NCBI GenBank assembly: GCA_025456225.1
Contig: JALOLB010000039.1
Location: 1-37,699 of the forward strand
Direction of reading: 5' to 3'
DNA length: 37,699 nt
Origin: Thermoanaerobaculaceae bacterium
GTDB taxonomy: Bacteria > Acidobacteriota > Thermoanaerobaculia > Thermoanaerobaculales > Thermoanaerobaculaceae
Shown here: positions 839-37,699 of the stretch, piece after piece
Numbering within the stretch: the first letter of the stretch is position 1
Layout: every line of letters begins with the position of its first letter
Translations under genes and position numbers: made by a program
Notes under the pieces: model-generated
Database searches by the model: none
Seen by the model: only the letters and a program-made list of their open reading frames with translations
Told to the model about the DNA's origin: nothing

Positions 839-2100
839 TCGGCACCCCCCAGCACCGGTCCGGGGGTGACAGGAGGCGTGGCCCGGACCGCGGCCTGCTC
901 CGGGTCCACTGCAGCGATCACGTCTCCGGCAACCAGGCCGCGGGTGATGATGACGCGCTCCGGCGCGACCGCCTCCATCTCGACCTCGGCCGGCTCGAAC
1001 CCACCCCACCGCCGCGTGCGGAACACGACCCGCCTGCCCTCCCGCTCGAAGACGGCCTGCCGCGGCACCACCAGCGCCTCGGCCCGGTCGGCGACGACGA
1101 TGTGGGCGCCGACCCGCATACCCGGCTTCATGAAGGTCGGATCGGTGCGCCCGATCGTCAGCACCGCCCCGAAGTACTGCACCTGCGACCCCTGCTGGCG
1201 AGGTTGCGCCAGGGCGTCCACGTGGCGCACGTGGGCCTCCACCTTCGCATCCGGGCGCCCCTCGACGAGCACCGTGGCGGCCTGGCCCACCGTCAGGCCC
1301 CCGGCATCCACCTCCAGCACCCAGACCTCGGCCTCCATGGACCCGAGGTCCGGGATCTCGGCCACCTTGTCGTTCGGCCACACCATGTCGCCGACCTGCG
1401 GGAGCGAGTCGCGGAAGCCCCGCGAGAGAAGGAGGAGGCCATCGTGCGGGGCGCGCATCTCGAGCTGTCCGAGCGTCTGGGTGGCACGCTGGCGCTCGAT
1501 CTCCGCCCGGCGGCGCTCGATGCGCAGCAGGTCCAGCTCGGAGGCGGCAACCCCGGGACGGGCGCCGAGCACGGCGTCCGCGTGCTCCTTGCGCTTCGCC
1601 GCCAGCTCCGTGTCGATGGCCGACGTGGCGATCTCGAATCGGGAGTAGATCTCCTCGTCGGTGGTCTGGAACGAGCGCGCATTCTCGAGCTCCCGGGCCG
1701 CCAGGCCCGCCTCCCGCTCGAGGGCACGCCCGGTGGCCTGGGCCTGCGCGGCTGACTTGGCCAGCCGCTGGTCCACCTGTGCCACCGTGGCCTCGCTCTC
1801 CTTGAGCGCCTTCTCGGCGTCGGTGGAGTCGAGGCGCACGACCACGTCTCCGGCCTTGACCGGCGTGCCATCCGGCAGCAGCCAGGCGATCTTGAGGGAC
1901 TGCCGGAGCTCCGCCGGGCAGGTGATGGGGGTCGAGCGCACGGCGCGCAGCACCCCGTCCGCCGCGACAGCGCGGTGAAAGCGCTGCGGCCGCACCGTCA
2001 GGACCGGGACGTCTTTCTGGCCCAGCATGCGACTGCCGGCCAGCAGGGCCGCGGCGGTCGCCACCACGGCGACGCCCGCACCAACCAGCCGCCGCCTCAT
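835..2100 (-). CDS. HlyD/MacA-family periplasmic adaptor (third of three paralogs)
   Basis: This protein of 421 residues is anchored by an N-terminal helix (about residues 4-22). It then has the split lipoyl/barrel-sandwich pattern of membrane-fusion adaptors: 'LLPDGTPVKAGDVVVRLDS' first, a long Ala/Glu/Arg-rich coiled coil (about 90-200), then 'MRAPHDGLLLL' and 'VGDMVWPNDKVAEIPDL'. The beta-barrel part contains 'FMKPGMRVGAHIVV'. Such proteins bridge an inner-membrane permease to the periplasm or outer membrane. The ATG at 2100 overlaps the upstream stop (ATGA), and its own stop overlaps the permease start (GTGA). It shares motif order with the two adaptors upstream (xPDGxxVxAGDxVxxLD; GDxxWPxxxVAEIxD), so the three look like paralogs from tandem duplication. 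The cargo is unknown. Confidence 0.9.
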   Translation of the reverse strand: MRRRLVGAGVAVVATAAALLAGSRMLGQKDVPVLTVRPQRFHRAVAADGVLRAVRSTPITCPAELRQSLKIAWLLPDGTPVKAGDVVVRLDSTDAEKALKESEATVAQVDQRLAKSAAQAQATGRALEREAGLAARELENARSFQTTDEEIYSRFEIATSAIDTELAAKRKEHADAVLGARPGVAASELDLLRIERRRAEIERQRATQTLGQLEMRAPHDGLLLLSRGFRDSLPQVGDMVWPNDKVAEIPDLGSMEAEVWVLEVDAGGLTVGQAATVLVEGRPDAKVEAHVRHVDALAQPRQQGSQVQYFGAVLTIGRTDPTFMKPGMRVGAHIVVADRAEALVVPRQAVFEREGRRVVFRTRRWGGFEPAEVEMEAVAPERVIITRGLVAGDVIAAVDPEQAAVRATPPVTPGPVLGGAE

Positions 2101-3308
2101 GGCGCGGCTCCAGCACCGAGGAGCACCCGGTCCCCGTCCGCGAGCCCTGCCAGCACCTCGATGCGGGTCGCGTTGCGCGCCCCCAGGCGCACCGCCAGGC
2201 GCTCGGTCCGCATCCAGCCCTTGCGCACCACCACCGGGCCCTCGGCCCCGACGGTCACGGCGTCCAGGGGGATGCTCACGACGTCGCGACGGCGGCCGAC
2301 CTCCACGTCCCCTCTCACCCGCATGCCCGGTCGCATGCGGACCCGGTCGGTCGTCTCGAGCTCCAGCTCCAGACGCACCACCTTGAGCTGGGGCTGGGTC
2401 CGCTTCGGCTGCAGGGCCGACTGCACGGTGCGGATGCGCGCCCGGTACTCGATGTCGCCGTGCGCATCCAGGCGGAGCACCACCGGCTGGCCGGGCTCGA
2501 GCTTGGCGGCGTCCTCCTCGTCGGCCTCGCAGCGCGCCAGCATCGCGTCGAGGTCGGGCAGCTCCAGCACCCGGTCCGCGTACCAGCAGGTGTCGCCGAC
2601 CTTGCGCTTCTGCTCGTTCCAGTCCGTGAGGTAGATCACCGTGCCCGCCTGGGGGGCGGTCACCCGCATGCGGCCGATCGCCTCCTCGATCCGCTGGACC
2701 CGCATCTCGGCCCGGTCGAGGGCATCCTTGAGGGAGGCCAGCTCGGAGCTCCCCGCCCGACGCCGGGCCTCGACCTGCCGGTGGAGGAACTCCACCTCCT
2801 TGCGGGCGATCCCCAGGTCGAGCAGGACCTGCTGCAGCTCCTTGGCCGGCACGAGGTCGTCGGGGCGCCCGGCCTTGAGCGTGGCGGTCCGGAGGCGCGC
2901 CTCGGCCTCGGCGAGCTTGAGGGCGTCGTCGTGGTCCTGCAAGGAGAGCTCCTGCCGCCGCTTCTCGAGCTGCTCCCGGGCCGCGTCCCGATCCGCCCGC
3001 CGTCGCTCCAGCTCCCGCCGCCGCTCGCTCGCGTCGAGCTCCAGCACCATGTCCCCCGCCTTCACGTCGGCCCCCTCGGGCGCCATCGCGGCGATCTTGA
3101 ACTCCCACTGACCCCACACCACGGGAGGGCCGATCTGGATGGATCTCACCGCCGCCAGGACGCCCGTGATGGGCACCGTGAGGATGAGGTCGCCCTTCTC
3201 GGCCCGCACCCAGTCGCCATGCTGGCCGGAGCCCCGAGCCAGGGTCAACGCCGCCACCGAAACGGCGACGGCGCCCACCGCACCGGCGATCAGCCACCGC
3301 CGCCTCAC
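2097..3308 (-). CDS. HlyD/MacA-family periplasmic adaptor (second of three paralogs)
   Basis: This protein of 403 residues opens with a basic stretch and one membrane helix (MRRRWLIAGAVGAVAVSVAA). It then has 'MAPEGADVKAGDMVLELDAS', a strongly charged coiled coil ('ERRRELERRRADRDAAREQL' and following), 'RVTAPQAGTVIYL' and 'RMRPGMRVRGDVEVG', the usual adaptor order. A longer reading from an ATG at 3371 is possible. I prefer the GTG at 3308 because it forms a GTGA overlap with the upstream stop, the same arrangement as the neighbouring genes, and gives a clean signal-anchor start. It lies between two related adaptors and upstream of a MacB-type permease. The family is clear; the specific partner and substrate are not. 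Confidence 0.88.
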   Translation of the reverse strand: MRRRWLIAGAVGAVAVSVAALTLARGSGQHGDWVRAEKGDLILTVPITGVLAAVRSIQIGPPVVWGQWEFKIAAMAPEGADVKAGDMVLELDASERRRELERRRADRDAAREQLEKRRQELSLQDHDDALKLAEAEARLRTATLKAGRPDDLVPAKELQQVLLDLGIARKEVEFLHRQVEARRRAGSSELASLKDALDRAEMRVQRIEEAIGRMRVTAPQAGTVIYLTDWNEQKRKVGDTCWYADRVLELPDLDAMLARCEADEEDAAKLEPGQPVVLRLDAHGDIEYRARIRTVQSALQPKRTQPQLKVVRLELELETTDRVRMRPGMRVRGDVEVGRRRDVVSIPLDAVTVGAEGPVVVRKGWMRTERLAVRLGARNATRIEVLAGLADGDRVLLGAGAAP

Positions 3309-12754: not shown

Positions 12755-13874
12755 ATGGGCGTCAAGGCCTTCCTCAGGCAGTTCCTCCGCGACCTGAAGG
12801 CGCAGAAGCTGCGGTCCGCCCTGACCCTCTTCGGCATGGTCTGGGGCACCACCGCGGTGACGCTGCTGGGCGCGTTCGGCGAGGGGCTGCAGGTGCGGCT
12901 CATCAAGAACATCCGCGGGCTCGGCGAGAACATCGTCATCGCCTGGCCCTCGCAGACCTCCAAGCCGTGGGAGGGCCTCCCCCGCAACCGCCGCATCGTC
13001 GTCAAGGACGACGAGATCGCCGCCATCCGCCGGGATGTGCCCGAGATCGCCGCCATCTCCGGCGAGTACTCGGACGGCGACAAGAAGTTCAAGGTCGGGC
13101 ACAAGGTCCTGGTGCCGGGGCTGACCGGCGCCAGCCCGGTGTTCGCCGCGATGCGCAACCTCATCCCCCAGGAGGGTGGCCGGTACGTCAACGACCTCGA
13201 CATGGACGAGCGCCGGCGGATTGTCTTCCTCGGCGACGAGCTCAAGAACGACCTTTTCGGCGACAAGGAGGCCGTCGGCAAGTACGTTCTGATCAGCGGC
13301 GTCCCCTTCCTCGTGGTCGGCGTCATGCAGGCCAAGGAGCAGGACTCCTCGTACCAGGGCCGGGACAAGGACCGGGCGTCCATCCCCGCCTCGACGTTCC
13401 GCGCCATGTACGGCCAGCAGGCCTACGGCAACTTCGTGTTCCAGGTGAAGGACGCCTCCACCGTGGAGAGCGCCAAGGACAAGGTCGTCGCCACCCTGGC
13501 GCGGATGCACCGGTTCGACCCCACCGACAAGGAAGCCGTGCGCATGTGGGACGTCACCGAGAACGAGAAGTTTATGCGCGCCTTCATGCTCGGCTTCCGC
13601 ATCTTCCTCGGGGTGATGGGCGTGCTCACGCTGGTGGTCGGCGGCATCGGCGTCTCCAACATCATGAACGTGGTGGTGGAGGAGCGCACCAAGGAGATCG
13701 GCGTCAAGATGGCCCTCGGCGGCCAGCCTCGACGAGTTCGTCGGCACGCCCCGCATCTCCCTGCTCGTGGGCGCGCTCACGATGCTGATCCTGGGGGTCA
13801 TCGGCTTCCTCGCCGGCTACTTCCCGGCGCGCACGGCCGCGCGCCTCAACCCCGTGGAAGCGCTGAGGCTCTAG
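12755..13874 (+). pseudogene. MacB-type permease with out-of-frame internal deletion
   Basis: The gene opens normally: strong GGGAGGAG site, ATG at 12755, helix 1 'LTLFGMVWGTTAVTLLGAFG', periplasmic domain, and helix 2 'GVMGVLTLVVGGIGVSNIMN' followed by 'EERTKEIGVKMALGG'. At about 13722 the frame breaks. The original frame continues as Arg/Pro-rich nonsense, while another frame gives the genuine family C-terminus ('SLDEFVGTPRIS...', last helix 'LVGALTMLILGVIGFLAGYF', 'NPVEALRL', TAG at 13872). Against its neighbour paralog about 46 residues are missing, including the third helix. The nonsense frame reads on into the next gene, so a naive call would fuse both into one 792-residue protein. It is either a real disabling deletion or an assembly error. 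Confidence 0.85.
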
Positions 13875-13876
13875 CC

Positions 13877-15133
13877 ATGCTCACGACCCGACTCATCATC
13901 CGGCTGTTCCGCAGCGCCGCCAAGCTCCAGCGCAAGCGCATGATCCTGACCGTGACGGCCATCGCCTGGGGCACCGTCGCCATCATCCTGCTCCTGTCCT
14001 TCGGCGAGGGGCTCAAGCGCTCCATGGACAAGGGGCGCAAGGGCCTCGGCGAACGTCTCGTCATCCTGTGGATGGGCGAGACCGAGAAGGCCTTCGCGGG
14101 CCTCCCGGCGGGGCGGCCGATCCGCCTGCTGCCGGAGGACGTCGAGCTGGTGCTCAAGGCGGTGCCGGAGATCGGCGCCGCCACCGGCGAGATGCACAAC
14201 TGGAACGTGCAGCTCGTCAACGGCCGGACGGCCCTCAACAAGCGCGTGGTCGGCGTGCACCCGGCGTACGGCGAGCTGCGCTCCAACTACCCGCAGGTCG
14301 GAGGTCGGTACATCAACGACGTGGACCAGCGCCTCAAGCGCCGCGTCGTCTTCCTCGGCGACGAGCTCGCAAAGGACCTCTTCGGCAGCCAGGACCCGGT
14401 GGGCCAGACCCTGCTCGTCGCCGACTCGCCGTTCACGGTCGTCGGCGTCATGCAGAAGAAGCGCCAGATGGGCATGTACGGCGGGCCCGACGCCGACCGG
14501 GCGACGATCCCCCTCTCGACCTTCGAGGCCATGTTCGGCCGGCGCTACCTCTCGAACCTCGTCTACCAGCCGGTGAGCGAGGCGGCGGCGCCCGCCGCGA
14601 AGAAGGCGTTCATGCGGACGCTGGGCGCCAAGTACCGGTTCGACCCGGAGGACACCCGCGCCCTCAGCTTCTGGGACACCATCGAGAACGCGAAGGTCTT
14701 CAACAACATGATGATCGGCATCGAGATCTTCCTCGGCATCATCGGCGCCCTGACCCTCATCATCGGCGGCGTCGGGGTCGCCAACATCATGTTCGCCGCC
14801 GTGCAGCACCGCACCCGCGAGATCGGCGTGCAGATGGCCCTGGGGGCGCGGCGCATCTACATCACCGGCGCCCTCGTGCTGGAGTCGCTGGCCCTCACGT
14901 TCGCCGGCGGCGCGACCGGGATCGGCGTCGGCGTGGCCCTGGTGCAGGCACTGGCCACGGTGCAGGAGAAGGCACAGAGCGAGGCCATGGAGTTCCTCGG
15001 GCAGCCGACGATCTCCATCCCCATCGCCCTGACCACGGTGGCCCTGCTGGGCTGCATCGGGCTGCTGGCCGGGTACTTCCCGGCCCGCCGCGCGGTCACG
15101 ATCCAGCCGGCCGTGGCGTTGCGGTACGAGTGA
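13877..15133 (+). CDS. MacB-type ABC transporter permease
   Basis: This intact 418-residue permease has an N-terminal helix ('MILTVTAIAWGTVAIILLLSFG') and a periplasmic core domain of about 230 residues ('LGERLVILWMGETEKAFAGL', 'VVGVHPAYGELRSNYPQVGG', 'GDELAKDLFGSQDPVGQTLL'). Three C-terminal helices follow, with 'IGALTLIIGGVGVANIMFAA', 'REIGVQMALGARRIYITGAL' and the usual end 'LLAGYFPARRAVTIQPAVAL'. Its ATG is 2 nt after the stop of the broken paralog, so translation is probably coupled. Two permeases beside one adaptor and one ATPase suggest that the original transporter was a heterodimer. With its partner broken, the system may be impaired or may use this subunit as a homodimer. Confidence 0.93.
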   Translation: MLTTRLIIRLFRSAAKLQRKRMILTVTAIAWGTVAIILLLSFGEGLKRSMDKGRKGLGERLVILWMGETEKAFAGLPAGRPIRLLPEDVELVLKAVPEIGAATGEMHNWNVQLVNGRTALNKRVVGVHPAYGELRSNYPQVGGRYINDVDQRLKRRVVFLGDELAKDLFGSQDPVGQTLLVADSPFTVVGVMQKKRQMGMYGGPDADRATIPLSTFEAMFGRRYLSNLVYQPVSEAAAPAAKKAFMRTLGAKYRFDPEDTRALSFWDTIENAKVFNNMMIGIEIFLGIIGALTLIIGGVGVANIMFAAVQHRTREIGVQMALGARRIYITGALVLESLALTFAGGATGIGVGVALVQALATVQEKAQSEAMEFLGQPTISIPIALTTVALLGCIGLLAGYFPARRAVTIQPAVALRYE

Positions 15134-25230: not shown

Positions 25231-26223
25231 CTATCTTCGGTCCCTTGCCACTGGCACGCTCGGCTGCAGGTTCGCCTGCACCATCTGAACACGCGCTGCG
25301 AACTCCGGATCGTCTCGTCGCCTGCCGACTGCCGCTCCGTACAGCCGGCTCGCCGAGCCGGCGTTCCTCCCCAGGCTCTCGCCGAGGTCCTTCACCTTCA
25401 GGTTGCAGACCTCGACGCCGAGCAGCATCACCAGCTCCCGCGCTCGCGTCAGCGCCGCGGTCTGGCCCCGGCCGGCCAGCGCCGCCGGGCTCACCCCGAC
25501 CTCCGCGGCGACCCGCGACACCAACTCGCCGGTCCCCAGCCGCACTGGCGCGGGGAGCTGCGCCAATCCCAGCCAGTCGAGGCGGGGTCGGGCCGGGTCG
25601 GGCTGCAGCACCTGATCCGCCGCCCCGGCCCGACGCCACCACGGCAGCTCGCCGGGCATGTCCCCCATCCACCCTTCGTCACGCCCACGACCGAGGATGG
25701 TCCGGTACGCGGCCCGCGCAGCCCGCAGGGTCGATCCGAACACCAGCAGCGCCTCGCTCACGTCCACCAGGCCCGTCCGCGCGCGCCCGAGGAGCTGCCG
25801 GTACCCACTCCACCGCCAGGCTGCGGGGTCAGCCATCATGCCGCTCGCCACCGGGTTGAGGTGCACGTAGGCAATCGCCTGCATGAGGTAGGGCGCATCC
25901 TCGATCGACCGCGCCTTGTACCGCCCTTGCCACAGCGGTCCCAGCACGCCCTGCCGGCGGTTGAAGGCCTTGGCGAAGCGCCCCTGCAGCAACCGCATGC
26001 TGCGCCACAGGGGGAGGACGCCGGACCGCAGCACGAGGTGGTAGTGGTTGGGCATCAGGCACCAGGCGAGGATGGTCAGCCCGTGCTCGGCCTTCACGGC
26101 CGCCAGGGTCTCGACAAACCGCGCGGCCACGGTGTCATCGGCGAACGGCCGCTCGCCGCGCGCGGCGCGGCAGTAGACGTGGTACGCGGCTCCCGGCACA
26201 AACACTCTCGCCTGGCGCGGCAT
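25231..26223 (-). CDS. REP-associated tyrosine transposase (RAYT, Y1/HUH family)
   Basis: This 330-residue single-strand DNA transposase starts with 'MPRQARVFVPGAAYHVYCRA', typical for RAYTs. It has the HUH metal motif in 'MPNHYHLVL' (H60, H62) and the catalytic-tyrosine helix 'LMQAIAYVHLNPVASG' (probable Y119), with 'GPLWQGRYKARSI' between them. The C-terminal 100 residues end in 'LTRARELVMLLGVEVCNLKV' and 'KDLGESLGRNAGSASRLYGA', which look like the DnaA-C-type helix-turn-helix often fused to RAYTs; this would bind the repeat DNA. GAGGAGGG precedes the ATG at 26223. It is complete, with no frameshift. It is flanked by the GAGTGTGATACC-type repeats described separately. Confidence 0.93.
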   Translation of the reverse strand: MPRQARVFVPGAAYHVYCRAARGERPFADDTVAARFVETLAAVKAEHGLTILAWCLMPNHYHLVLRSGVLPLWRSMRLLQGRFAKAFNRRQGVLGPLWQGRYKARSIEDAPYLMQAIAYVHLNPVASGMMADPAAWRWSGYRQLLGRARTGLVDVSEALLVFGSTLRAARAAYRTILGRGRDEGWMGDMPGELPWWRRAGAADQVLQPDPARPRLDWLGLAQLPAPVRLGTGELVSRVAAEVGVSPAALAGRGQTAALTRARELVMLLGVEVCNLKVKDLGESLGRNAGSASRLYGAAVGRRRDDPEFAARVQMVQANLQPSVPVARDRR

Positions 26224-26274: not shown

Positions 26275-26339
26275 GAGTGTGATACCAGGTACCGATCTGT
26301 GATACCAGGTACCGATCAGGTACCGATCAGGTACCGATC
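26275..26339 (+). repeat. Right RAYT-associated repeat array
   Basis: Two exact tandem 20-bp units, TGTGATACCAGGTACCGATC, at 26278-26297 and 26298-26317 are followed by two exact 11-bp units, AGGTACCGATC, at 26318-26328 and 26329-26339. The first unit with its preceding GAG is the inverted partner of the left repeat. It lies about 50 nt upstream of the transposase start. Confidence 0.9.
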
Positions 26340-26623
26340 TTGGGTCAGGCCATTCAACCCTCGGATGTTGCCTTCCGCTCCTGGTCGGGCGTCGGCACCT
26401 GCGTTTGGTGATTTCGGGGTCCGCAGGCGCGGCCTACGCACTCGCTATCTACGCTTCGTGGGCGGGGTCACCCCCGCGCCGCACGCAAGACTCGCTTCTG
26501 GCTGGTGGCCACCCTTCGCCGACGGGATTCTCACCCGCACGGTCCGTCAAGGAGGTTTCCAAGATCCCTGCTCGTTCTCCTCAGGTCATCTCTTCCCCCT
26601 CCTCCAGGCTTCGCCTGGCGCGC

Positions 26624-26645
26624 ACCAGGTACCGATCAGGTACCA
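26624..26645 (+). repeat. Third copy of the RAYT-associated repeat
   Basis: ACCAGGTACCGATCAGGTACC repeats the core of the right array, preceded by a CCAGGC-TTC-GCCTGG hairpin (26604-26618). The 26340-26623 stretch between the two arrays has no gene I can support. It contains several short GC-rich hairpins but no recognised RNA family. Confidence 0.8.
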
Positions 26646-26666
26646 ATCCTGGCACTCAATACCAAG

Positions 26667-27083
26667 TCAAATGAAGACCAGCATCAGAAGGCGGGCAAAG
26701 AAAGACGCAACAAAGGCCGCAACGGAGATCTGGAAGACAGCGGTCATTCGGCTTGACACCATGGCAGGCAGCTCGGTAAGGAGTCTGTCAATTCGAAACG
26801 TCCGACCTCGCACAAGTACCACAACCAACATGGCGACCGCCAAGCCAATACTGCAGACCGTCACGAAGCGCAGGACATAGTAGGCTTGGCCAAGCAGCTG
26901 ACTAACCTCCCTTACTGAGTTGCCATGAATCAAGATGTAGCGACCATCGCGAAAGGCGACACCGCGGCCGCCTGCCGCGCCGGACGCCAGATTCGTGGCC
27001 GCCAGCAGCGAGAGCGTAATACAGACAGTCGCAGCCCAAGCGACGATAACTCTGCATTCGACAGTTGGCCTCGTGGCGCACAT
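26667..27083 (-). CDS. Small three-helix membrane protein; candidate RHS immunity protein
   Basis: This 138-residue protein has three predicted membrane helices (about 11-33, 68-92, 112-136). A periplasmic loop between the first two has 'GVAFRDGRYILIHGNSVREV', and a short cytoplasmic basic loop has 'VRGRTFRIDR'. I do not recognise the family. The start is the ATG at 27083 with GGGAGG about 9 nt upstream. It lies 134 nt after the stop of the RHS gene on the same strand and, like the RHS tip, appears lower in GC than the surroundings. This is the usual place and style of an immunity gene for a polymorphic toxin. That role is inferred from position only; a neutral membrane protein is the alternative. 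Confidence 0.72.
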   Translation of the reverse strand: MCATRPTVECRVIVAWAATVCITLSLLAATNLASGAAGGRGVAFRDGRYILIHGNSVREVSQLLGQAYYVLRFVTVCSIGLAVAMLVVVLVRGRTFRIDRLLTELPAMVSSRMTAVFQISVAAFVASFFARLLMLVFI

Positions 27084-27217
27084 GACGAGACCTCCCTTCT
27101 CCAGCCTACACCCCAAACTGACAGGAGTCCCTGAATCCGCCAATGAAGGCCACTTACACGCCTTTGAGTGCGTCCGCTAGCGCCGCGGGCCGACCAACGC
27201 AAGTGACTTACTCTGCA

Positions 27218-30200
27218 TCACGGCTGCGGCTTGTCGTCCGAAGGTGGCCGAAGCGTGAGGTACTCTGTTTGGCTTTGCGTGACGGCTGGCAAGAGAGTGG
27301 TAGTCACTCCGACAAATACGACCTTCGCACCCTGTGGTGCGAGGGGGTTGCCCGCGATGCCTAGTTGAAACCCCCCAGCAGACCCGGCGACAGATGTGAA
27401 AGCCCCCTGATAGCTGCCACGGCCATTGTAGTCAAGTACCAAACCGATTGAGAAAGAGCCTGTGAGAGCTGCTCCCCCGATTGTCTTCGTGGGGCCGGCG
27501 AAGACGTAGGGGTCGTTGAGATTCACAACGGCAAAACCTGCTGTCCCCTCAAGCCCTGGGAACCGCTTTAGAGGGCTCCCACTCACAGAAGCCTCGAGGA
27601 CGACATCGACTTTCTCTGGGGCATGCTTTCCAACGACCCTCCCCGCATCGAAAGAGCCACCAGCAGACCGAAGGGGGTGTGCTCCGAGAGCAGCGTCCGC
27701 ACTAGCCTTCTCAGCAACGCCTCGCCCGAACCCTTGCACGAAGAGCGCCATCTGCAGGCAGGCATCAAAGAGCCCTGAGTCAACAGAACAGCGCCCGTCA
27801 GGATCTGTCCTGTCAATTGGGTTGTCGAGTGCATACGTATACCTATTCCACGACTGCGTCGACCCAGGCGTCGCCCCCGCCGGATCCACACTCAAGAACC
27901 GCCCAATCCCGAAGTTGTAGTACCTCGCGTGCATGTAGTCCAGGTCGTCCCCCCACCCCGCGCCGAGCGTTCGCTGCGTGTCCCGCTCGTGGCCGGTGAA
28001 CTTCATGCGCTCGGTGTCGTACTGCACCTTGCCCGCGCTGTCGGGCGCCTCCTGGCCGTAGGGGTAGTAGACGTGGCGCCCGGCATTGAACTTGCCGGAG
28101 TCGGTCATGTACTGCGCCGTCCCGAGATGGTCGAGGTGCATGTGCCGCACCCCGAGGTTGGGAGCCACGTCGGCGAGCAGCCGGCCGCCAGCGTAGACGT
28201 AGTCCTTCGACCACATCCAGACGTCGATGTTGCCGGAGTACCCGCGCACCGCGCGCGCCTCGCGGAGCACCTTCTGGTCGAGGCCACGCAGGGTGAAGGT
28301 GTAGTGCTGCGGCGGCTGGTTGGCGTGGAGCCGCTCGAGCGTGAGCACCCGCTCGTCGTTGGCGTCGTACACGTACTCCCGGTCGACGCCCGCCGTGGAG
28401 CGGTAGCGCTCCATCGACCCCGTCGGCGCCCAGTCGTAGGTGAAGTCCGTGGTGCCCCGCCTCCAGTTGAGGAGGTAGCCCGCCGCGTTGTACCAGACCC
28501 CTTCGCCGCCGAGGCCGTTCCACTCCGTGACCTCGATCGGCATTTCGGTGCCGTTCGTGGTGATGCTCGTGATGTTCCCGAACCCGTCGTACACGTACGA
28601 CTGGGTCTTGGTGCAGCCGCGCACGCAGGCGTCGAGCACCCGGCTCATCCGGTCGTACCGGTACTTGTCGGAGCCGATGTACTTGATGTTGCCCGCCCCG
28701 TCGTACTGGTAATACCCGGAGTCCCAGTTGGCTGTGCCGGGCGAAACGGGATCGAGCGCCGAGGAGGTGTAGAGCCGGTACGGGCGCGGCATGCCGTAGA
28801 CGATGGTCTGCGTCTCGCTCACGCCGCTGCCCCGGGTGATCTGGTTGATGGCCCCGTTCGGATGGTAGGCGATAGCGGTCGCGTACCCGTAGAGGTTCGC
28901 GCCGCTCGCCGAACGCTCGCCGACCGACGTCAGGATGCCCTTGGTGTAGGTGTACTTCACCTCGCGCCGCGGCAGCGCAGACAGGCCCTCCGGGTAGACC
29001 TGCCTCGCGAGGGAGCCGAGGAGGTTGGAGTCCCAGGTGAACGACTGGGTGAAGACCCACCCGGGCGTCTGGCCCGCCACGTCGACGGCGGTGCTCTTCT
29101 GGGTCACCCTGCCGCGCAGGTCGGCGTACGTGAAGGTGTCGACGACCTTGTAGTCGCTACCGTCCAGCAGGTAGTTGTGCGCCTTCGACTGCCAGAGCCG
29201 GCCCCGTCGGAGGTCGGCGCCGCTGTTGTCGGTGTAGTACGCGTACTCCTTGAGGAGTTGGTTCGTCTCACCGTCGCGCACGGTGGCGAGCCGCTCCTGT
29301 GAGTCGTAGGTGTACGTGAGGTGGAACTCGCCGAAGTAGCGCTCGGTGACGTGGCCACGGGCATCGTACCAGGCGCACATCCCATCGACCGGGCAGCCAG
29401 GATAGCCGGCGCTGACGGTCTCCGGGGTGGTCGACCTGACGAGGAAGCCTCGGCCGTCGTAGACGAACGATGACGTCTGATGCATGCCATTCGTCGGAGC
29501 GTTACTCGAGAGGGAGACCGTCCTGAGCTGCCCGCCCGGCGCATAACCGTAGATGGCCCTGGTCCAGAGGGTGGCGTCAATCTGCTCGAAGACCGTGCGG
29601 AGTCGCCCGAGATTGTCGAACGTCTCGGTCGTGGCGGCCGACACGTCCTGGTTGCCGCCACTCGACGACCTCGAGAAGATCGTCACCGTCCGTGTCTTGG
29701 AGCGGTCGCCCAGGTACGTGAAGGTCTCCACCTTCGAGTCGGGCTTCGTCACCGTGAGCGGCCGGTTGAACCGGTCGTAGGTGTAGGTCGTCCAGTTGGA
29801 GGGGGTGCCCCCCGCCGCCACGACCGCCGAGACGCGCCTGGTGCGTCCCAGGCTGTCATACTCGGTGACCTGCTGGTTCCACGACTCGCTTGCGGTGGGC
29901 CGTAGCTGCTCGGTCTTGGTGAGGCGTCCGAACCCGTCGTAGGAGTGCCGTGCATGCCCCACCGAGCCAGGAGTCCCGGTTGTCTGCCCAAACCCACGAA
30001 CGATCGCCTCGGCCTTTGGGCCGATCGTCCCACTCGCCTTCGTGTACACGTACTGGGTCCAGGCGCCGGCGTTTCGTGGCTTCTCCCACTCCAGTCGGCC
30101 CATGATGTCGTAGGTGAGGTCGGTCCCGATGCCGGCGGTGTCGTAGGTCGTGGTGACCACCCCGGCGGGATCGATGGTGAGGTTGAGCGACGGGTAGGTG

Positions 30201-32497
30201 GCGCCGCTGTATTGGCTCGTCGCCCGGGTGCCGTAGGCGTAGGAATGGGTGATGGTGTAGGCGGCGGCAGGCAAGGTGGCGTTGCACAGCGACTCCAGCC
30301 CGACGCCTCCCGAGTCGCCGCCGTGGTACGACTCTGTCACGGCATTCCCCCAGCCGTCGTCCGTGAAGACGGCGACCGTGTCGATCGCCTGTCGCACTGG
30401 GCTTACCTCGAGGCTGGCGAGGTTCCGAACCCGGGTCACGAACCCGGTCATCGGGTAGCCGCTCTGGAAACGGCTCACGCAGTACTCACTGCGGAGCTTC
30501 GGGCTGCCGAGACCGTCCTCTTCGGTCTCACACCTGGCGTCGAAGGTGCCCAGGATCCACGGCATGTTCACCGGCCACGGAACGTAGCTCCCAGGGTACT
30601 GGGGGTAGTCGGTCTCAACCCACCCGTTCTCCGGCTCGCTCGCGTACGGTGGCGGGTTGTAGCCCGTGAATGACACATGCTGCGTGTAGGGCACGAGGCT
30701 CCCGAGCGTCGTGCCCTTCCGGAAGTGTCCCAGGCCGTCGAAGTTGGAGTACGCGGTCTGCAGGTACGCATCCGCATCGTCGTGGTAGACCGTCTTCGTG
30801 AGGGTCATGTGACGGTTGAAGTGACGGTGCTCGAGCCACAGGTCGTCGCTCGGATCGTGGGTGTAGTCCACGAACACCGACCGCACCTTCGAACCGGTCG
30901 GCGGCCCGGGGACCTTTCGGTCGCTCGGGATTCCAGCAGCACCCGTGTAGTACTCCACCGACAGGAACGGTCCTGAGGTGTTTCGGGTGCTGTCTCCCGG
31001 GTTGCGGCGTGTGAACGGCAGCACGTAGTCCCACGACTCGGGCATGTCGCTCTCGTCGGAGATCATCCCCATGGCGTACGGAATCGCTCGGAAGTAGTGC
31101 ACGGTGTCGTTGCCGGCAGGATCGGTCACGTACGTCCGGCGTTCCTCGTACGCGAGGCCCTCGTCCGGTTCGATCATCATGGGGTCGGCCCACCCGTACC
31201 AGGCCCGGTAGGTCCACGTCTTGGTCGAGCTATCGAGCTCGGTCATGGTCCTCGTGGCGATCCCGGGCCAGTCCTCGCGGTGGAACTCCCGGGTGCAACC
31301 GTTGCTGCCGGGCACACAGCCTCCCGGCCCGAGGAAGTTCCGCATGAGTGACGTCCATTGCTGGTAGGTCCACGACAGAGTCCCGCCGGTCGGCAGTGTC
31401 ACCTTCTTGACGGCGCCGGTGGGAACCCACCACCCATTGGGACAAGAAGGGGGGCCATCCTTGCAGGTGTAGTAGCCATCAGTTGCGGAGGTCCCAAACA
31501 CGTACTTGGAAACCTGGTCCGGCAGCACGACCTCCTTGAGTAGGCGCGCAGGGATAGGGGCTTGATACGGTGGCACAGACCAGTTCTGGGCAGGGGGACG
31601 CTGGATGGGAATGGAATCGTAGTACCTGAACTGGTACTTTGCCACCTGGCCACCGGGGGCGACGAGGAGGACGTGATCGACCAGCCCTTCGCTCAAGCAC
31701 ACCTGCTGCCTGCGCGGGTACTCAACGCCACCCACCGCGGCGTTGTCGGTGATCGTCCAGGCGGGCATCATGTCGTCGTCGTCGCAAAGCTGGTTCTCGT
31801 ACTGGACACTGAAGCCGTTACCATTCGCGTCGACGATCGCAAGCAAGCGCCACTTGTAGTCCTCGTATAGCTCGAACAGGTGAGTTGTGCCGTCCGGGAA
31901 CTCCACTCTCGCGTGATCGTTGGTCGGAGGCTCGTTGTCGAGGTACCTGAACCGCAAATAGCTGCCATCACGGGTGTACTTCGCGCCGTCCTCCACCTCG
32001 AAGTCGTGCAACGTGTCGTGGAATACGTGCCGCCCACCGTCAGGTGAAACATAGGTGAAGCTGCCTATCACGGGATTCTGCGGGGTGGCGTCGCGCGAGT
32101 CGATGACGTCGCCGAGCGACAGCCGCCAGCCGAAGCCGACGTTGTTGGAAACGTCTGGGACGGCGCCAATGCATGTGCAGTAGTACTGGATGCCATCTTC
32201 ATCCTGGCAGGTGCAGGGCTCCGGCACTTCCACATAGTTCCACAGCTCCGCGTTGGTCGTCAGCTTGAGGCCGTACGAGAAGCCGCCGTTCAAGGAGAAC
32301 GAAGGTCCGATCGGGATCGTCAGTACCACATTGCCGGTGGCCAGGTCGATGGAGTCGATGTCTCCCATCTGGTAGACCTTGTCGGCAGAGAAGCCGCGCT
32401 CGCGGGTGTTGTCGTGTCCGCCGCTCTCCTGGGCTCCCACGGGCACGACGAGCAAGAGGGCGAGGACCGCTGCCATCAACATGGTTCTTCTAGTCAT
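27218..32497 (-). CDS. Giant secreted YD-repeat (RHS) protein with unrecognised C-terminal tip
   Basis: The 1759 residues begin with a Sec signal peptide (1-22, ending VGA). The N-terminal region is typical of RHS/SpvB-like shells ('DIDSIDLATGNVVLTIPIGP', 'VGFGWRLSLGDVIDSRDA'). Dozens of YD repeats follow (about 450-1480; for example 'YDSLGRTRRVSAVVAAGG', 'YTYDSQERLATVRDGETN'). The RHS core is about 1490-1570: 'DHLGTAQYMTDSG', 'MHARYYNFGIGRFLSVDPAG' and 'NRYTYALDNPIDRTDPDGR'. After the DPDGR hinge comes a tip of about 190 residues, Gly/Val-rich and probably beta-structured ('LTGSFSIGLVLDYNGRGSYQ'), with no nuclease, ADP-ribosyltransferase or other toxin motif I recognise. YD shells encapsulate and deliver C-terminal cargo. 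AGGGGG precedes the ATG. It starts 10 nt after the small secreted gene, in one operon. Confidence 0.93.
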   Translation of the reverse strand: MTRRTMLMAAVLALLLVVPVGAQESGGHDNTRERGFSADKVYQMGDIDSIDLATGNVVLTIPIGPSFSLNGGFSYGLKLTTNAELWNYVEVPEPCTCQDEDGIQYYCTCIGAVPDVSNNVGFGWRLSLGDVIDSRDATPQNPVIGSFTYVSPDGGRHVFHDTLHDFEVEDGAKYTRDGSYLRFRYLDNEPPTNDHARVEFPDGTTHLFELYEDYKWRLLAIVDANGNGFSVQYENQLCDDDDMMPAWTITDNAAVGGVEYPRRQQVCLSEGLVDHVLLVAPGGQVAKYQFRYYDSIPIQRPPAQNWSVPPYQAPIPARLLKEVVLPDQVSKYVFGTSATDGYYTCKDGPPSCPNGWWVPTGAVKKVTLPTGGTLSWTYQQWTSLMRNFLGPGGCVPGSNGCTREFHREDWPGIATRTMTELDSSTKTWTYRAWYGWADPMMIEPDEGLAYEERRTYVTDPAGNDTVHYFRAIPYAMGMISDESDMPESWDYVLPFTRRNPGDSTRNTSGPFLSVEYYTGAAGIPSDRKVPGPPTGSKVRSVFVDYTHDPSDDLWLEHRHFNRHMTLTKTVYHDDADAYLQTAYSNFDGLGHFRKGTTLGSLVPYTQHVSFTGYNPPPYASEPENGWVETDYPQYPGSYVPWPVNMPWILGTFDARCETEEDGLGSPKLRSEYCVSRFQSGYPMTGFVTRVRNLASLEVSPVRQAIDTVAVFTDDGWGNAVTESYHGGDSGGVGLESLCNATLPAAAYTITHSYAYGTRATSQYSGATYPSLNLTIDPAGVVTTTYDTAGIGTDLTYDIMGRLEWEKPRNAGAWTQYVYTKASGTIGPKAEAIVRGFGQTTGTPGSVGHARHSYDGFGRLTKTEQLRPTASESWNQQVTEYDSLGRTRRVSAVVAAGGTPSNWTTYTYDRFNRPLTVTKPDSKVETFTYLGDRSKTRTVTIFSRSSSGGNQDVSAATTETFDNLGRLRTVFEQIDATLWTRAIYGYAPGGQLRTVSLSSNAPTNGMHQTSSFVYDGRGFLVRSTTPETVSAGYPGCPVDGMCAWYDARGHVTERYFGEFHLTYTYDSQERLATVRDGETNQLLKEYAYYTDNSGADLRRGRLWQSKAHNYLLDGSDYKVVDTFTYADLRGRVTQKSTAVDVAGQTPGWVFTQSFTWDSNLLGSLARQVYPEGLSALPRREVKYTYTKGILTSVGERSASGANLYGYATAIAYHPNGAINQITRGSGVSETQTIVYGMPRPYRLYTSSALDPVSPGTANWDSGYYQYDGAGNIKYIGSDKYRYDRMSRVLDACVRGCTKTQSYVYDGFGNITSITTNGTEMPIEVTEWNGLGGEGVWYNAAGYLLNWRRGTTDFTYDWAPTGSMERYRSTAGVDREYVYDANDERVLTLERLHANQPPQHYTFTLRGLDQKVLREARAVRGYSGNIDVWMWSKDYVYAGGRLLADVAPNLGVRHMHLDHLGTAQYMTDSGKFNAGRHVYYPYGQEAPDSAGKVQYDTERMKFTGHERDTQRTLGAGWGDDLDYMHARYYNFGIGRFLSVDPAGATPGSTQSWNRYTYALDNPIDRTDPDGRCSVDSGLFDACLQMALFVQGFGRGVAEKASADAALGAHPLRSAGGSFDAGRVVGKHAPEKVDVVLEASVSGSPLKRFPGLEGTAGFAVVNLNDPYVFAGPTKTIGGAALTGSFSIGLVLDYNGRGSYQGAFTSVAGSAGGFQLGIAGNPLAPQGAKVVFVGVTTTLLPAVTQSQTEYLTLRPPSDDKPQP

Positions 32498-32507
32498 GAT
32501 TGGCCCC

Positions 32508-33155
32508 CTACCGCTTCTCGCCCAGGCGGGCGGCGAAGTACTTCAACGATTCCATGTCGATGCCGATGACGACATCGTCGACGGCGAGCGTGTCCGGTGC
32601 TGCCGGGCTGGTACCGGCGGGCGTCAGGCTCGACGTGCGGACCACGAGGCTTCCGGGCGTGTCGATTGCCATGTCACCTGCATCACCATCAGCGCATGTA
32701 CGCAGCCATACCCCACCACCAGGCCGCACCAGGAGCAGCGCTGTGTACGTTCCGGCACTCCGCACCTCCCGTGCCGGGGTGCTTGCCGCAAGAACCGTGG
32801 TGTCTGGGAACGGAACCGGGAGGTCGGGACCGTCCGGGTGGGGCTGGACCGCGAAAGCACCCGTCGTCAGATCCACAGCCGCGAACACCGAGTGCGGAGA
32901 AACCTCCTCCTCGAGCTTCCAGACAGCGATGCCGTCTCGGTCGTCGTCGGAGAGCAGGGCTTCCTGTCGGACCATCCGAATGTAGATCCTCGGGCGATCG
33001 TGGGCGACCATCATCAGGACCGCCTGGCCACCTGGAGTGATCCCCGTGACCGTGACCTGGTCCTTGTCGATCTGCACCCTGGGGGCCCCATCAGTTGGCG
33101 CAGCCTGGAGCGCCGTGGCGCTGAGTAACAGTGCGGCGAGAAGTCGCGGTGTCAT
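32508..33155 (-). CDS. Small secreted protein preceding the RHS gene
   Basis: This 215-residue protein has a signal peptide (1-18, ending LQA). A mature beta-rich domain has 'VQIDKDQVTVTGITPGGQAV', 'IRMVRQEALLSDDDRDGIAV' and 'AGTYTALLLVRPGGGVWLRT'. No family is recognised. GGGAG lies about 7 nt before the ATG at 33155. It is only 10 nt from the RHS start and 21 nt from the SLH gene stop, so all three share a transcript. It could be an export or anchoring partner of the RHS shell; this is inferred from position. Confidence 0.82.
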   Translation of the reverse strand: MTPRLLAALLLSATALQAAPTDGAPRVQIDKDQVTVTGITPGGQAVLMMVAHDRPRIYIRMVRQEALLSDDDRDGIAVWKLEEEVSPHSVFAAVDLTTGAFAVQPHPDGPDLPVPFPDTTVLAASTPAREVRSAGTYTALLLVRPGGGVWLRTCADGDAGDMAIDTPGSLVVRTSSLTPAGTSPAAPDTLAVDDVVIGIDMESLKYFAARLGEKR

Positions 33156-33176: not shown

Positions 33177-33974
33177 TCAGTTCGATGTGCAGGCCGAGCG
33201 CACCCTGGTCGGCGGCGGCGCGATGAAAGCGGCATCGAGGAAGACTGCCACTTCCCAGCGCGAAGCGTAGTTTTCCGGGCAATACTGGCGATTGGGAGCG
33301 GGAGCACAGCCGGAAGTGATGCCCTCGAGCCAGAGCTGCTCGATCCATGCGGCAGCCCAATGCGAGCAGTCCGGCACGTCGCAGAAGATCCTGGGTTCGG
33401 AGGGGTTGCACGCCGGAAGCGTCCACCCGGCAGCATGCTTCCCGCCGAGAATGAAGACCGCCATCTGCGCCCTCGTCATGGGTTCCTGCGGGCAGTAGTA
33501 GCGCTTCCCGCCGATCAGCGCACACCCGGAGGTCAACCCCTCCGCGTAGAACTGCTCGATCCAGCACGCCATCGGGTGCTCGACCGGTACGTCCGCGAAG
33601 ACCCCGGTGGCCGCAGGAAAGGTCGTGGGCGGCACGATCGGGGAGGCGTTGCGGTTCGAGCGGTGTCTGGCGTTCAGGACGAAGAAGGCGATCTCCTCCC
33701 TGGTGACCGGGCGATACGGGCAGAACTGCCCAGGGCCGCACCCGGTCATGATTCCGTTCCCGACCAGGTTGTTGATGATCGTCTGGACGCCCGACGACAG
33801 CCCACTGATGTCGGTGAAGGCCTCGACGGGCCGGGGCGCCCAGAGGGTGCGGCACCCGTAGTCGATGCCCGCGGTCTGGCCCGAGGCCGAGGCTGCGAGC
33901 GTGAGAATGAGAAGGCAACCAAGCGGCACGACACCAAGCGAGGTCAAGCATCGAGCAGCCACTCGAGTTTCCAT
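33177..33974 (-). CDS. Secreted protein with three SLH domains
   Basis: This 265-residue protein has a signal peptide (about 1-33) and three SLH-type repeats: about 52-102 ('NLVGNGIMTGCGPGQFCPYR', 'PVTREEIAFFVL'), 125-177 ('FYAEGLTSGCALIGGKRYYC', 'PMTRAQMAVFIL') and 198-248 ('LWLEGITSGCAPAPNRQYCP', 'SRWEVAVFL'). Each repeat has paired Cys residues, so disulfides are likely. SLH domains usually hold proteins to the cell wall or envelope glycans. Nothing else is in the protein, so it may be a pure anchor or adaptor. The ATG at 33974 has AAGGG about 9 nt upstream; an ATG at 33983 is possible but has no space for a binding site. It is the first gene of the RHS operon. Confidence 0.88.
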   Translation of the reverse strand: METRVAARCLTSLGVVPLGCLLILTLAASASGQTAGIDYGCRTLWAPRPVEAFTDISGLSSGVQTIINNLVGNGIMTGCGPGQFCPYRPVTREEIAFFVLNARHRSNRNASPIVPPTTFPAATGVFADVPVEHPMACWIEQFYAEGLTSGCALIGGKRYYCPQEPMTRAQMAVFILGGKHAAGWTLPACNPSEPRIFCDVPDCSHWAAAWIEQLWLEGITSGCAPAPNRQYCPENYASRWEVAVFLDAAFIAPPPTRVRSACTSN

Positions 33975-34062
33975 CAGGACCATCCCTTCGTGGGCGAGCA
34001 TCCGCCTCGGCGTGTCGTGACACGTCGCTGCAAATCTCTCGCCCCCCAGCAGTGATTCGCGG

Positions 34063-34237: not shown

Positions 34238-37200
34238 TCAGGGGGCTTCTTGCGCCGGGACGAAGACCGGAGCGTTGGTCCCGTTGTTGACGAGGGAGCT
34301 GCCCAGGGCGATCGCGGCCCCCGGCTCGATCTCGACCTTGAGGATGACCTGGCCGAGGTCGTCCTCGGGGGTCAGGTCCGTGAAGAAGCTGTCGAGGGAC
34401 TTCTGCCAGTAGCCGTACTTCCCGGACGCCCAGAGCTGGCGCTCCTTGACGAAGGTCGGGTCGTCGGCCTTGGAGAGGGTCAGCTTGACGTCGTCGGCTG
34501 CCCAGCCGACCCCGGCGGGCTCGACGATCGTCACATTGGTCCGGAACCCCTGGCCGGATGTCTGGGCCGTCTTGCCGTTGTGGCGGAGGCCGGTGAAGTA
34601 GAGGGTCAGCTTCTTGTTGGTGGCCTGGTAGACCTGGTACACCATCACGAACTGGCCAAAGTCGTCGTACGGAGCGACTGCCCCCGTGTGGGTGCGGGCC
34701 GAGATGATCGGCAGCGGCTTGACGCCCCGGTAGACAGGATCGGCCTGGTAGAACCAGAGCGATGCCTTCGAGAACTCGATCTCCACCTTCGAGAGCACCC
34801 ACTCGAGGGAGCGGGTCTGCCCGGCCGGCAGGGTGAAGGTCCCGGACTCCTCGCGCGGCGAGGCGTCGGGCCGCTTCACGGCCAGCCTGAGATCCATGTC
34901 GTTCTCGGTGGGGTTGTACAGCGTGAGGTCGGTATTCCACAACGCCCCGTTGTTGCCCGGCAGATTGCGGGCGACGTCCATGACCATGAGGGACTGCGGC
35001 GAGCACTGCGAGCCTCCCACCGTGACATCCCTGGTGGCTGCCTGGGACTTGACGTCCGACCCGCTCTTGATGCGCCTCGAGATCAGCTTGACCGGGAAGG
35101 TTCGGCCGCAACGGAAGGTGTGCACCACCTCGGCCTTGTCACTGCCGGATGCGGTCTCGCCGTCACCGAAGTCCCAGATGTAGTAGTTGGGGTCGCCGTA
35201 GGTTGCGCCGGTCGCGGCGTTGAACGTCACGACCTGGGGGTTCTGGGCGTCGGCCACGTTCGACGTGAAGCTCGCGATGACCGGCCGCATGTCCGGGAAC
35301 ACCTTCACCGTGAGCGGCACCTGCGCCGAGGTCCCGATGCAGTTCGTGGCCTTCATGCGCACGATCTTGTCGCCCGGGGTCTGCCAGGTGTGGGTCGGGT
35401 TCGCCACCGTGTAGGTCGCCCACGGCGACTGGCTGAAGTCGGTCCACTCGTACGAGGTCGGGAAGTTGGTGGTCCCCGAGGGGTCGAACGTCACCGCCTG
35501 CCCCACGTACGGCTGGTCCTGCACCACCCCGCCGATCGTGACCTGGTCCTTGGGTTCCCAGGTGAAGCTCGCCACCGGCACCGCCGTGGCCTGGCAGACC
35601 GAGAACTTCCAGGTGGGGCTGGTTCCGGTGCCGCATGAGTTGAGGGCCTTGACATACCAGGTGCGCTCTCCGCTCGTGACGCTCGGCACCACACACTGTC
35701 GGGTGGTGATCCCCTGGCAGAGCCTGACACCGCCTACGTACACATCGTAGGTGAGAGAGTTGCCCGTGGCCGGGGCCGCCCACGTCAGCGTGACGTTACC
35801 CGGTGGGACGACGCCGTTGTCGGCCGGCGTCGGGTTGGTGGGCTGGCCCGGCGCCACACAGGGCTCGCCGACCGTGACGTTCGTGGCCGTCGATGACGCG
35901 CTGCCGCACGAGTTCCTGGCGGTTACCAGCCACGGGTACGGTCCTCCGTTCGCCACAGCGGTGGTATGGCTCGTGCCAGTCAGGCCGCTGGCCTTCTTGA
36001 CGAGACCGACGTACAGGTCGTAGGTCGGGGTCGGCGATCCGCTGGAGGCCGTCCAGGTGAACGTGACGTTGCCCGCCGGGACCGTCGCCTGGTGGGCCGG
36101 CGAGATGTTGGTGGGTGCAGTCGGCATCGTACACGCGGAGCCCACCGTGAAGCTCGCCTGTGCCGAGGTAGCCGACCCGCACGCATTCGACGCCTTGACC
36201 GTCCAGGAGTAGCTCCCGGCCGCCAACTGGGTGGTGCTGGTGCAGGAGTTGCCGGACGAGCTGCACACCTTCGCGAACTCCACGTAGACGTCATAGGTGA
36301 TCGGCGACGTTCCCGAGACCGTGGTCCACTGGAAGGTCACGGTGCCGGCAGGGACCGTCGTGTTCTTGGGCGACGAGGCGTTCGGCGTCCCCGGGCCCGT
36401 GCAGCTCGTCGGGCAGGTCCCGGTGTTGTTGACCGTGAGCTGCTGGCTGGCGATCGTCGTGTAGCTCGTGCCGTCCATCGAGATGGCAAGGGTGACGGTC
36501 TTGGTACCGGCGCTCTTGAAGCGGAACCCGGTGACACAGCCGAGAGTGCAGGTCCCCTCGATCACCGAGGCGTAGCCGGTGCACCCCGTCTCGCCGAAGC
36601 TCCACCGGGCCTTCTGGACATTCGAGGGCAGCCCCTCGCCCATGAACGACACCAGCGTGCCGATGTTGACGGTGCTGGGCGTCCAGGAAAAGGAGCCGCT
36701 GATGTCCGAGGCGGTGAACGTCAGGCTCGCCACGGCCTGGTCCACGGCCGGTGCCGACACCGCGGTGAGCTGGAGGGTGTACTGCTGCCCGTTCGTGAGC
36801 GTGTCGGCCGGGATCGTCGCGCCACTGGAGCACGGCACGCTCGCGGCCGACCAGGCGTTCGGCGTCAGGGCCCAGGAGCACGTCGCCGTGCTGCCCGAGG
36901 CCACCTGCCCCGTGAAGGTCAGGTTGAGGGGGCTGCCGATCATGGCGGTGCCGCCGTTCGTCACCGTGGTGGAGCCCTGGGTCGCGGTGAAGGCGGCGGT
37001 GACGGCGCCGGAGTGGACCGTCACCACGGAGGTGGCGACCGGTAACTGGAGGAACGGGTAGGACACAGCGGCGCCCACCTTGTAGTCCCCGGTGCTGTTG
37101 AGGGTCAGCTCCAGCGTGCCGTTCCCGTTGTTCACGTAGTCGGCGGTCGGGGCGACCGTGCACCCCGCCCCGGTGGGGCAGAGCTGCACGGTCCAGGCCG

Positions 37201-37699
37201 GGTTGGCGGAACCCCACGCGGGGTGGCCGTCGCTCGTGAGCGTGGACAAGCGCAGGCCGTAGCCCTGCAGCCACGAGCAGGAGGTGCACGCCTGCCAGCT
37301 TCCGCCCGGGGCCTTGACGTGGGTAAGCGTCAACCGAGACACCGGGTCGCCGCACAGGTACACCGAGCCCGTGGCGGTGAGCAGGTTCTGGGAGGCGTCC
37401 CGCACCTTGAGGGTCGCCGTGAAGGTGCCGGTCAGGTGGGTCGGGGAGGTCCAGGTCGTGGACCCGCCAAGCATGCTGCCGGTGACGTTCTCGTAGTACT
37501 GGCTCGGGCCGGTGATCACCAGCTCCTCGAGGGTCGTGCCGCTGCTCGACTGGTTGGTGAGCACGAAGCCGTCGCCCGGGAACCCCTTGACCGCGTCGGT
37601 GGGCGTCGCCGTGCACGTGGGAGTGCCCGGCATCCCGCTGGCCCGGGCCACGCCCAGGTTGGCCGTCGGCGTGGTCGACAGGCACGAGGTCTTGATGGT
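34238..37699 (-). CDS. Large secreted FN3-like/PKD repeat protein (N-terminus beyond window)
   Basis: 1153 residues are visible; the frame is open to the right edge, so the signal peptide and start lie outside. The first 430 or so residues are Ig-like, Cys- and Thr-rich. Three FN3-like repeats of about 90 residues follow (roughly 433-706; 'TYDVYVEFAK', 'TYDLYVGLVK', 'TYDVYVGGVR', each with 'NSCGxxxS' or similar). Then come PKD domains ('YEWTDFSQSPWATYTVANPT'; 'YYIWDFGDGETASGSDKAEV' near 840). A C-terminal domain of about 250 residues has 'GALWNTDLTLYNPTENDMDL' and 'LTLYFTGLRHNGKTAQTSGQ'. Such proteins are extracellular adhesins, matrix proteins or exoenzyme scaffolds; no catalytic domain is visible here. 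An intrinsic terminator follows directly. Confidence 0.88.
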   Translation of the reverse strand, partial: TIKTSCLSTTPTANLGVARASGMPGTPTCTATPTDAVKGFPGDGFVLTNQSSSGTTLEELVITGPSQYYENVTGSMLGGSTTWTSPTHLTGTFTATLKVRDASQNLLTATGSVYLCGDPVSRLTLTHVKAPGGSWQACTSCSWLQGYGLRLSTLTSDGHPAWGSANPAWTVQLCPTGAGCTVAPTADYVNNGNGTLELTLNSTGDYKVGAAVSYPFLQLPVATSVVTVHSGAVTAAFTATQGSTTVTNGGTAMIGSPLNLTFTGQVASGSTATCSWALTPNAWSAASVPCSSGATIPADTLTNGQQYTLQLTAVSAPAVDQAVASLTFTASDISGSFSWTPSTVNIGTLVSFMGEGLPSNVQKARWSFGETGCTGYASVIEGTCTLGCVTGFRFKSAGTKTVTLAISMDGTSYTTIASQQLTVNNTGTCPTSCTGPGTPNASSPKNTTVPAGTVTFQWTTVSGTSPITYDVYVEFAKVCSSSGNSCTSTTQLAAGSYSWTVKASNACGSATSAQASFTVGSACTMPTAPTNISPAHQATVPAGNVTFTWTASSGSPTPTYDLYVGLVKKASGLTGTSHTTAVANGGPYPWLVTARNSCGSASSTATNVTVGEPCVAPGQPTNPTPADNGVVPPGNVTLTWAAPATGNSLTYDVYVGGVRLCQGITTRQCVVPSVTSGERTWYVKALNSCGTGTSPTWKFSVCQATAVPVASFTWEPKDQVTIGGVVQDQPYVGQAVTFDPSGTTNFPTSYEWTDFSQSPWATYTVANPTHTWQTPGDKIVRMKATNCIGTSAQVPLTVKVFPDMRPVIASFTSNVADAQNPQVVTFNAATGATYGDPNYYIWDFGDGETASGSDKAEVVHTFRCGRTFPVKLISRRIKSGSDVKSQAATRDVTVGGSQCSPQSLMVMDVARNLPGNNGALWNTDLTLYNPTENDMDLRLAVKRPDASPREESGTFTLPAGQTRSLEWVLSKVEIEFSKASLWFYQADPVYRGVKPLPIISARTHTGAVAPYDDFGQFVMVYQVYQATNKKLTLYFTGLRHNGKTAQTSGQGFRTNVTIVEPAGVGWAADDVKLTLSKADDPTFVKERQLWASGKYGYWQKSLDSFFTDLTPEDDLGQVILKVEIEPGAAIALGSSLVNNGTNAPVFVPAQEAP

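Follow-up and report, generated by a model that had tools for sequence, protein, structure and literature searches.

A predicted polymorphic toxin gene of the RHS/YD-repeat type in a Thermoanaerobaculaceae bacterium (Acidobacteriota) ends in a 190-residue tip that very likely forms a toxin-immunity pair with a 138-residue protein encoded downstream on the same strand. The gene lies in a stretch of 37,699 nucleotides, analysed as a whole and termed the window, and its features are collected in Table 1. Judged by sequence, the tip and its three-helix partner are new families within the known RHS toxin-immunity kind and not a new kind of system. The overall reading considered likely is that of an exported RHS toxin with a membrane-acting, beta-rich tip, which would cause a pore or ion leak, and a three-helix immunity protein. 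The pair would represent a new candidate toxin-immunity family in a phylum whose antagonism has hardly been studied.

Table 1. Positions of the RHS locus in the window and of the homologous cassette array in genome G008
Feature	Position	Strand	Basis or remark
RHS/YD-repeat polymorphic toxin gene, 1759 aa	27218..32497	(-)	ORF, RHS_repeat PF05593, Rhs_assc_core TIGR03696
Sec-type signal peptide of RHS protein, MTRRTMLMAAVLALLLVVPVGAQ	32429..32497	(-)	Read directly from sequence
RHS-associated core domain, residues 1477-1568	27794..28069	(-)	TIGR03696
Predicted autocleavage/hinge motif PIDRTDPDG (PxxxxDPxG), residues 1560-1568	27794..27820	(-)	Motif scan
Candidate toxin tip, 190 aa, new family	27218..27790	(-)	Everything after DPDGR; homologue in G008:C70, 1900-2484
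Shine-Dalgarno sequence GGGAGG, 7 nt before ATG 27083	27091..27096	(-)	Sequence
Candidate immunity protein, 138 aa, three TM helices, predicted GRY beta-hairpin loop TM1-TM2	26667..27083	(-)	Adjoining homologue, profile, hydropathy
Secreted accessory gene, 215 aa, directly upstream of RHS gene	32508..33155	(-)	Homologues at same place in order
G008:C70 (L007, 8.5-kb contig), first in array: end of RHS protein with unrelated tip and small gene			
G008:C70, core fragment and homologous tip	1756-2559		
G008:C70, three-helix homologue	2590-3006		30 bp after tip
G008:C70, next: HEAT-repeat protein, then third core fragment with HETAE tip and own downstream gene			

The RHS protein contains RHS repeats (E of 1.7e-6 in the Pfam scan) and an RHS-associated core (E of 6e-15 in NCBIfam) with two DPxG motifs, DPAG (residue 1538) and DPDG (residue 1565), of which DPDG lies within the previously described PxxxxDPxG motif (PMC3150448, PMC13018210). 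The N terminus is formed by the signal peptide instead of a PAAR domain, which is absent from the Pfam scan, and no Pfam match to an NHL propeller was obtained up to an E value of 1. By these tests, the protein belongs neither to the PAAR effectors nor to the teneurin-like proteins. Repeats and core, PxxxxDPxG before the tip, variable tips and an adjoining candidate immunity gene were all found, and together they mark it as a predicted RHS polymorphic toxin.

The first-pass annotation had described a tip of about 190 residues after DPDGR without a known toxin motif, followed by a small membrane protein on the same strand, and this description was accurate. Neither protein had a usable match in Pfam, NCBIfam, PADLOC, PHROGs, PDB sequences, plasmids or phages, and the viral contigs searched contained no relative. 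Weak Pfam names (GSK-3_bind, UQCC3 and BNR_2) were far below their own cut-offs and were dropped. The lower GC content reported for both genes was also correct (0.597 for the tip and 0.573 for the small gene, versus 0.648 for the RHS body) and is sharper at third codon positions, where the values are 0.59 and 0.65, compared to 0.88 for the RHS body.

A reading of the small ORF from position 27143 would give 158 aa, but the ATG at 27083 is the better start and leaves a gap of 134 bp to the tip. Homologues at the same relative place in another genome of the order (G008) and elsewhere in a third genome (G051) show that the ORF is a real gene. Hydropathy places hydrophobic segments at residues 12-30, 73-91 and 119-137, and three such segments are present in all three homologues. 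Imm17 and Imm-CdiI, which are likewise membrane immunity families of polymorphic toxins, have two TM segments and other motifs (PMC3482391), whereas the window partner has three, carries GRY and corresponds to no Pfam or NCBIfam model. GR[YW] and a following G are common to the three homologues and lie in the loop that joins helices 1 and 2. The AF2 model, of low to moderate confidence (pLDDT of 59), shows three long helices and, at 41-59, a small beta element; a fold search with the model gave no PDB match (best E of 2.7). The GR[YW]-bearing loop (31-72) is weakly predicted to be periplasmic, as positive charges favour the N terminus and the second loop inside, but charge is a poor basis here, with loop one also positive in the window protein.

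Co-occurrence of the two proteins carries most of the argument for a pair. Among the 37 genomes of the order, the tip has a relative in only one other genome, G008 (E of 3e-15 with the single sequence; a G019 match at an E of 0.0096 was ignored), and outside the genome of the window the small protein, too, has a relative in this genome only (E of 4.5e-5). In a sample of 396 genomes of the phylum, tip and small protein were found in the same two genomes and were adjacent in both, as expected from the earlier suggestion of a toxin-immunity pair, and a two-sequence tip profile again recovered only G008 besides the genome of the window. Scanning 84,980 species genomes for two conserved tip patterns, an approach that could miss divergent relatives, led to the same second contig (WGCW01000070.1, from the MAG Acidobacteria bacterium S145_17). 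The two tips are 33-39% identical. The small proteins are 29% identical, with a local score of 94 versus 33 +/- 5.7 for shuffles, i.e., 11 standard deviations above them, while random partner pairs average 0.1. The pairing is thus drawn from two loci. Since it also adjoins the tip in the only other tip-bearing genome found, the three-helix protein most likely serves as the antidote.

In G008, the tip homologue is part of an array of orphan cassettes, each combining core fragment, tip and small gene, which is the layout of the orphan tip/immunity modules of Rhs and CDI loci (PMC3150448). As the same pair ends a full-length RHS gene in the window and forms an orphan cassette in G008, tip and small gene move as one unit. 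Were the tip instead a decayed or structural RHS end, e.g., an adhesion domain, beside an unrelated ORF, its richness in Gly, Ala and Val and its low GC3, as in newly arrived or decaying DNA, would be accounted for. Nevertheless, the tip has been kept, with its frame intact, in two families of the order at the identity given above, and the small gene has been conserved along with it inside a cassette array, which makes a nontoxic end very improbable.

The small protein is not common apart from RHS genes. Its single stand-alone homologue (L102, G051:C62, 7413-7811; E of 4e-5) lacks an RHS core over 11 kb and possibly represents an orphan immunity gene. Weak profile matches in G362, G045 and G136 were left uncounted. 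The stand-alone copy, and the fairly long gap to the tip in the window, would also suit a toxic tip whose true immunity gene is another one, with the three-helix protein as a passenger. This arrangement is improbable: a homologue of the three-helix protein follows the tip homologue immediately in an independent cassette array, the same strand has no other plausible gene in the interval from the tip to the start of the transposase gene at 26223, and orphan immunity genes are known to occur.

Exchange of tips on a common core is widespread in the order. The RHS core query identified about 45-50 places in 18 of the 37 genomes; the tips that follow the shared core are mostly unrelated, with few related to each other, and a small ORF lies close downstream of nearly all of them. 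In G022, which belongs to the same genus as the window, the core is about 50% identical and the tips differ. These loci show that Acidobacteriota maintain arrays of interchangeable RHS tip cassettes. Several other tips were characterized by inspection. An orphan tip with HETAE (L007, 3834-4676) resembles by eye a zinc metallopeptidase toxin, and the tip of L044 (G025:C109; VAIYRSLDAAGNVQYVGFT...) resembles a GIY-YIG nuclease. Two otherwise unrelated tips of L007 (1039-1134 and 2461-2556) have a common C-terminal tail, DDATAASTVxRC...YxF...C, which is possibly a recombination footprint; it was rejected as a general tip end, being confined to L007 among the 37 genomes. Gly-rich, beta-like tips were seen in L042, L046, L054, L056, L057, L062, L069 and L074, several of them after a VTVTA linker and mostly beside small multi-helix proteins. 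L042 and L046 have homologous partners (E of 3e-4) but tips without detectable homology.

The tip of the window is rich in Gly (14.7%), Ala (12.6%) and Val (10%) and ranks first of 39 tips in beta over alpha periodicity, with the G008 tip second. The signal is modest (z of 1.8 and 1.3, respectively, versus shuffles). The tip is also the fourth least charged of 40, with charge counted over the last 120 residues. Across these 40 tips, charge was negatively associated with the number of TM helices of the partner (Spearman rho of -0.42, P = 0.006), and partners with at least two TM helices accompanied 9 of 12 low-charge tips compared to 5 of the remaining 28 (Fisher P = 0.001); the link was noticed before the test, its thresholds are post hoc, and a few of the tips are related to one another. 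The partner was taken as the longest ORF starting at -100 to +160, a rule that errs at least once (for L042, an 85-aa two-helix ORF at +4 is likelier). If general, the association of poorly charged tips with multi-helix membrane partners could predict membrane-attacking tips among unknowns.

The proposal that the tip acts on membranes thus gained indirect support from its low charge, its beta periodicity and the class-wide link between charge and partner, but not from its modelled fold, as the AlphaFold model built from two sequences (mean pLDDT of 28.9) was discarded. On balance, these sequence features lean towards action on a membrane. A beta pore is a tentative possibility and would be unusual, because alpha-helical structures are predicted for the known membrane toxins of Rhs and CDI systems.

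A membrane immunity protein suits any toxin working at a membrane, and the tip of a true toxin-immunity pair could also be an enzyme of the periplasm or membrane, attacking lipid, lipid II or peptidoglycan precursors, with the partner binding it through the periplasmic loop. The blocks conserved in both tips (NDPY, Y-x-G-x2-S-x-QG-x-FTS and AGNP in the two-tip comparison) could make an active site, and one high-charge tip of the order is also paired with an 8-TM partner. Comparison of the two tips, however, revealed no conserved His or Cys and no GxSxG nucleophile or lipase motif, and neither Pfam and NCBIfam nor the other family searches matched an enzyme family. An enzymatic tip is consequently regarded as unlikely.

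For a nonenzymatic, membrane-acting tip, the following sequence of events is proposed. The RHS protein would be exported through its Sec signal peptide, without PAAR, and its YD-repeat shell would enclose the tip, which would be cut off at PxxxxDPxG and delivered to a competing cell. There, the 190 residues would act as a beta-strand-rich toxin at the cytoplasmic membrane, and the harm to the inner membrane of the competitor would most likely be a pore or ion leak. In the producer, the 138-residue protein would sit in the inner membrane with its GRY beta-hairpin loop towards the periplasm and would block insertion or assembly of the tip. Extension of this scheme to an Acidobacteriota group of beta-strand pore tips, combining a Sec-exported RHS protein, the secreted accessory protein encoded at 32508-33155 and a three-helix neutraliser with a periplasmic hairpin, is doubtful.

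The locus shares the RHS core, the PxxxxDPxG boundary, the polymorphic tip and the downstream small gene with the Rhs-CT/RhsI and orphan modules of Dickeya and E. coli; it differs in its new tip and partner families, in having a signal peptide and not a T6SS PAAR end, and in its occurrence in Acidobacteriota (PMC3150448). Tse5-CT/Tsi5 of Pseudomonas aeruginosa likewise combines a membrane-acting RHS tip with an integral membrane immunity protein, but Tse5-CT is predicted to be alpha-helical and is delivered by the T6SS, and Tsi5 has two helices versus three in the window partner (PMC9637101). No similarity to either protein was seen in Pfam, NCBIfam or PDB searches. The CDI ionophore toxins are five-helix domains on a CdiA carrier, and their CdiI proteins are two-helix hairpins of 72-100 aa, unlike the three helices and 138 aa found here; CdiI proteins are nevertheless also small and hydrophobic and diverge to about 30% identity, as does the pair of small proteins described above (PMC11630599). 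Bacterial teneurin-like proteins have a YD-shell, DPxG cleavage, polymorphic C-terminal toxins and an immunity gene in common with the window locus, and some of their C-terminal domains are predicted to be outer-membrane-protein-like, while one membrane-damaging tip is toxic only if exported (PMC13018210). Their FN-plug/NHL superfold (PMC13018210) sets them apart from the window protein, in which Pfam gave no NHL match.

The 215-aa gene upstream of the RHS gene has relatives in 10 of the 37 genomes, at least six of them directly upstream of RHS genes (G024, G001, G003, G010 and G034 among them), and its product has no Pfam or NCBIfam match. This is apparently a conserved accessory gene of RHS loci. 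As it travels with these RHS genes, it may belong to a PAAR-free delivery route; that its product may help RHS export or anchoring is a guess. Further upstream of the RHS operon, the same strand encodes an SLH-domain protein (33177-34001) and a PKD-repeat protein (34238-37651). Downstream of the candidate immunity gene lies a Y1_Tnp (IS200-like, RAYT-type) transposase gene (25231-26223, minus strand), and repeated CAGGTACCGATC units occur between the two at 26278-26343 and 26615-26652. Elsewhere in the window, an ORF at 12755-15133 (plus strand) fuses two MacB-like permease halves and has a seemingly out-of-frame stretch around 13800-13950, probably reflecting a frameshift in the sequence.
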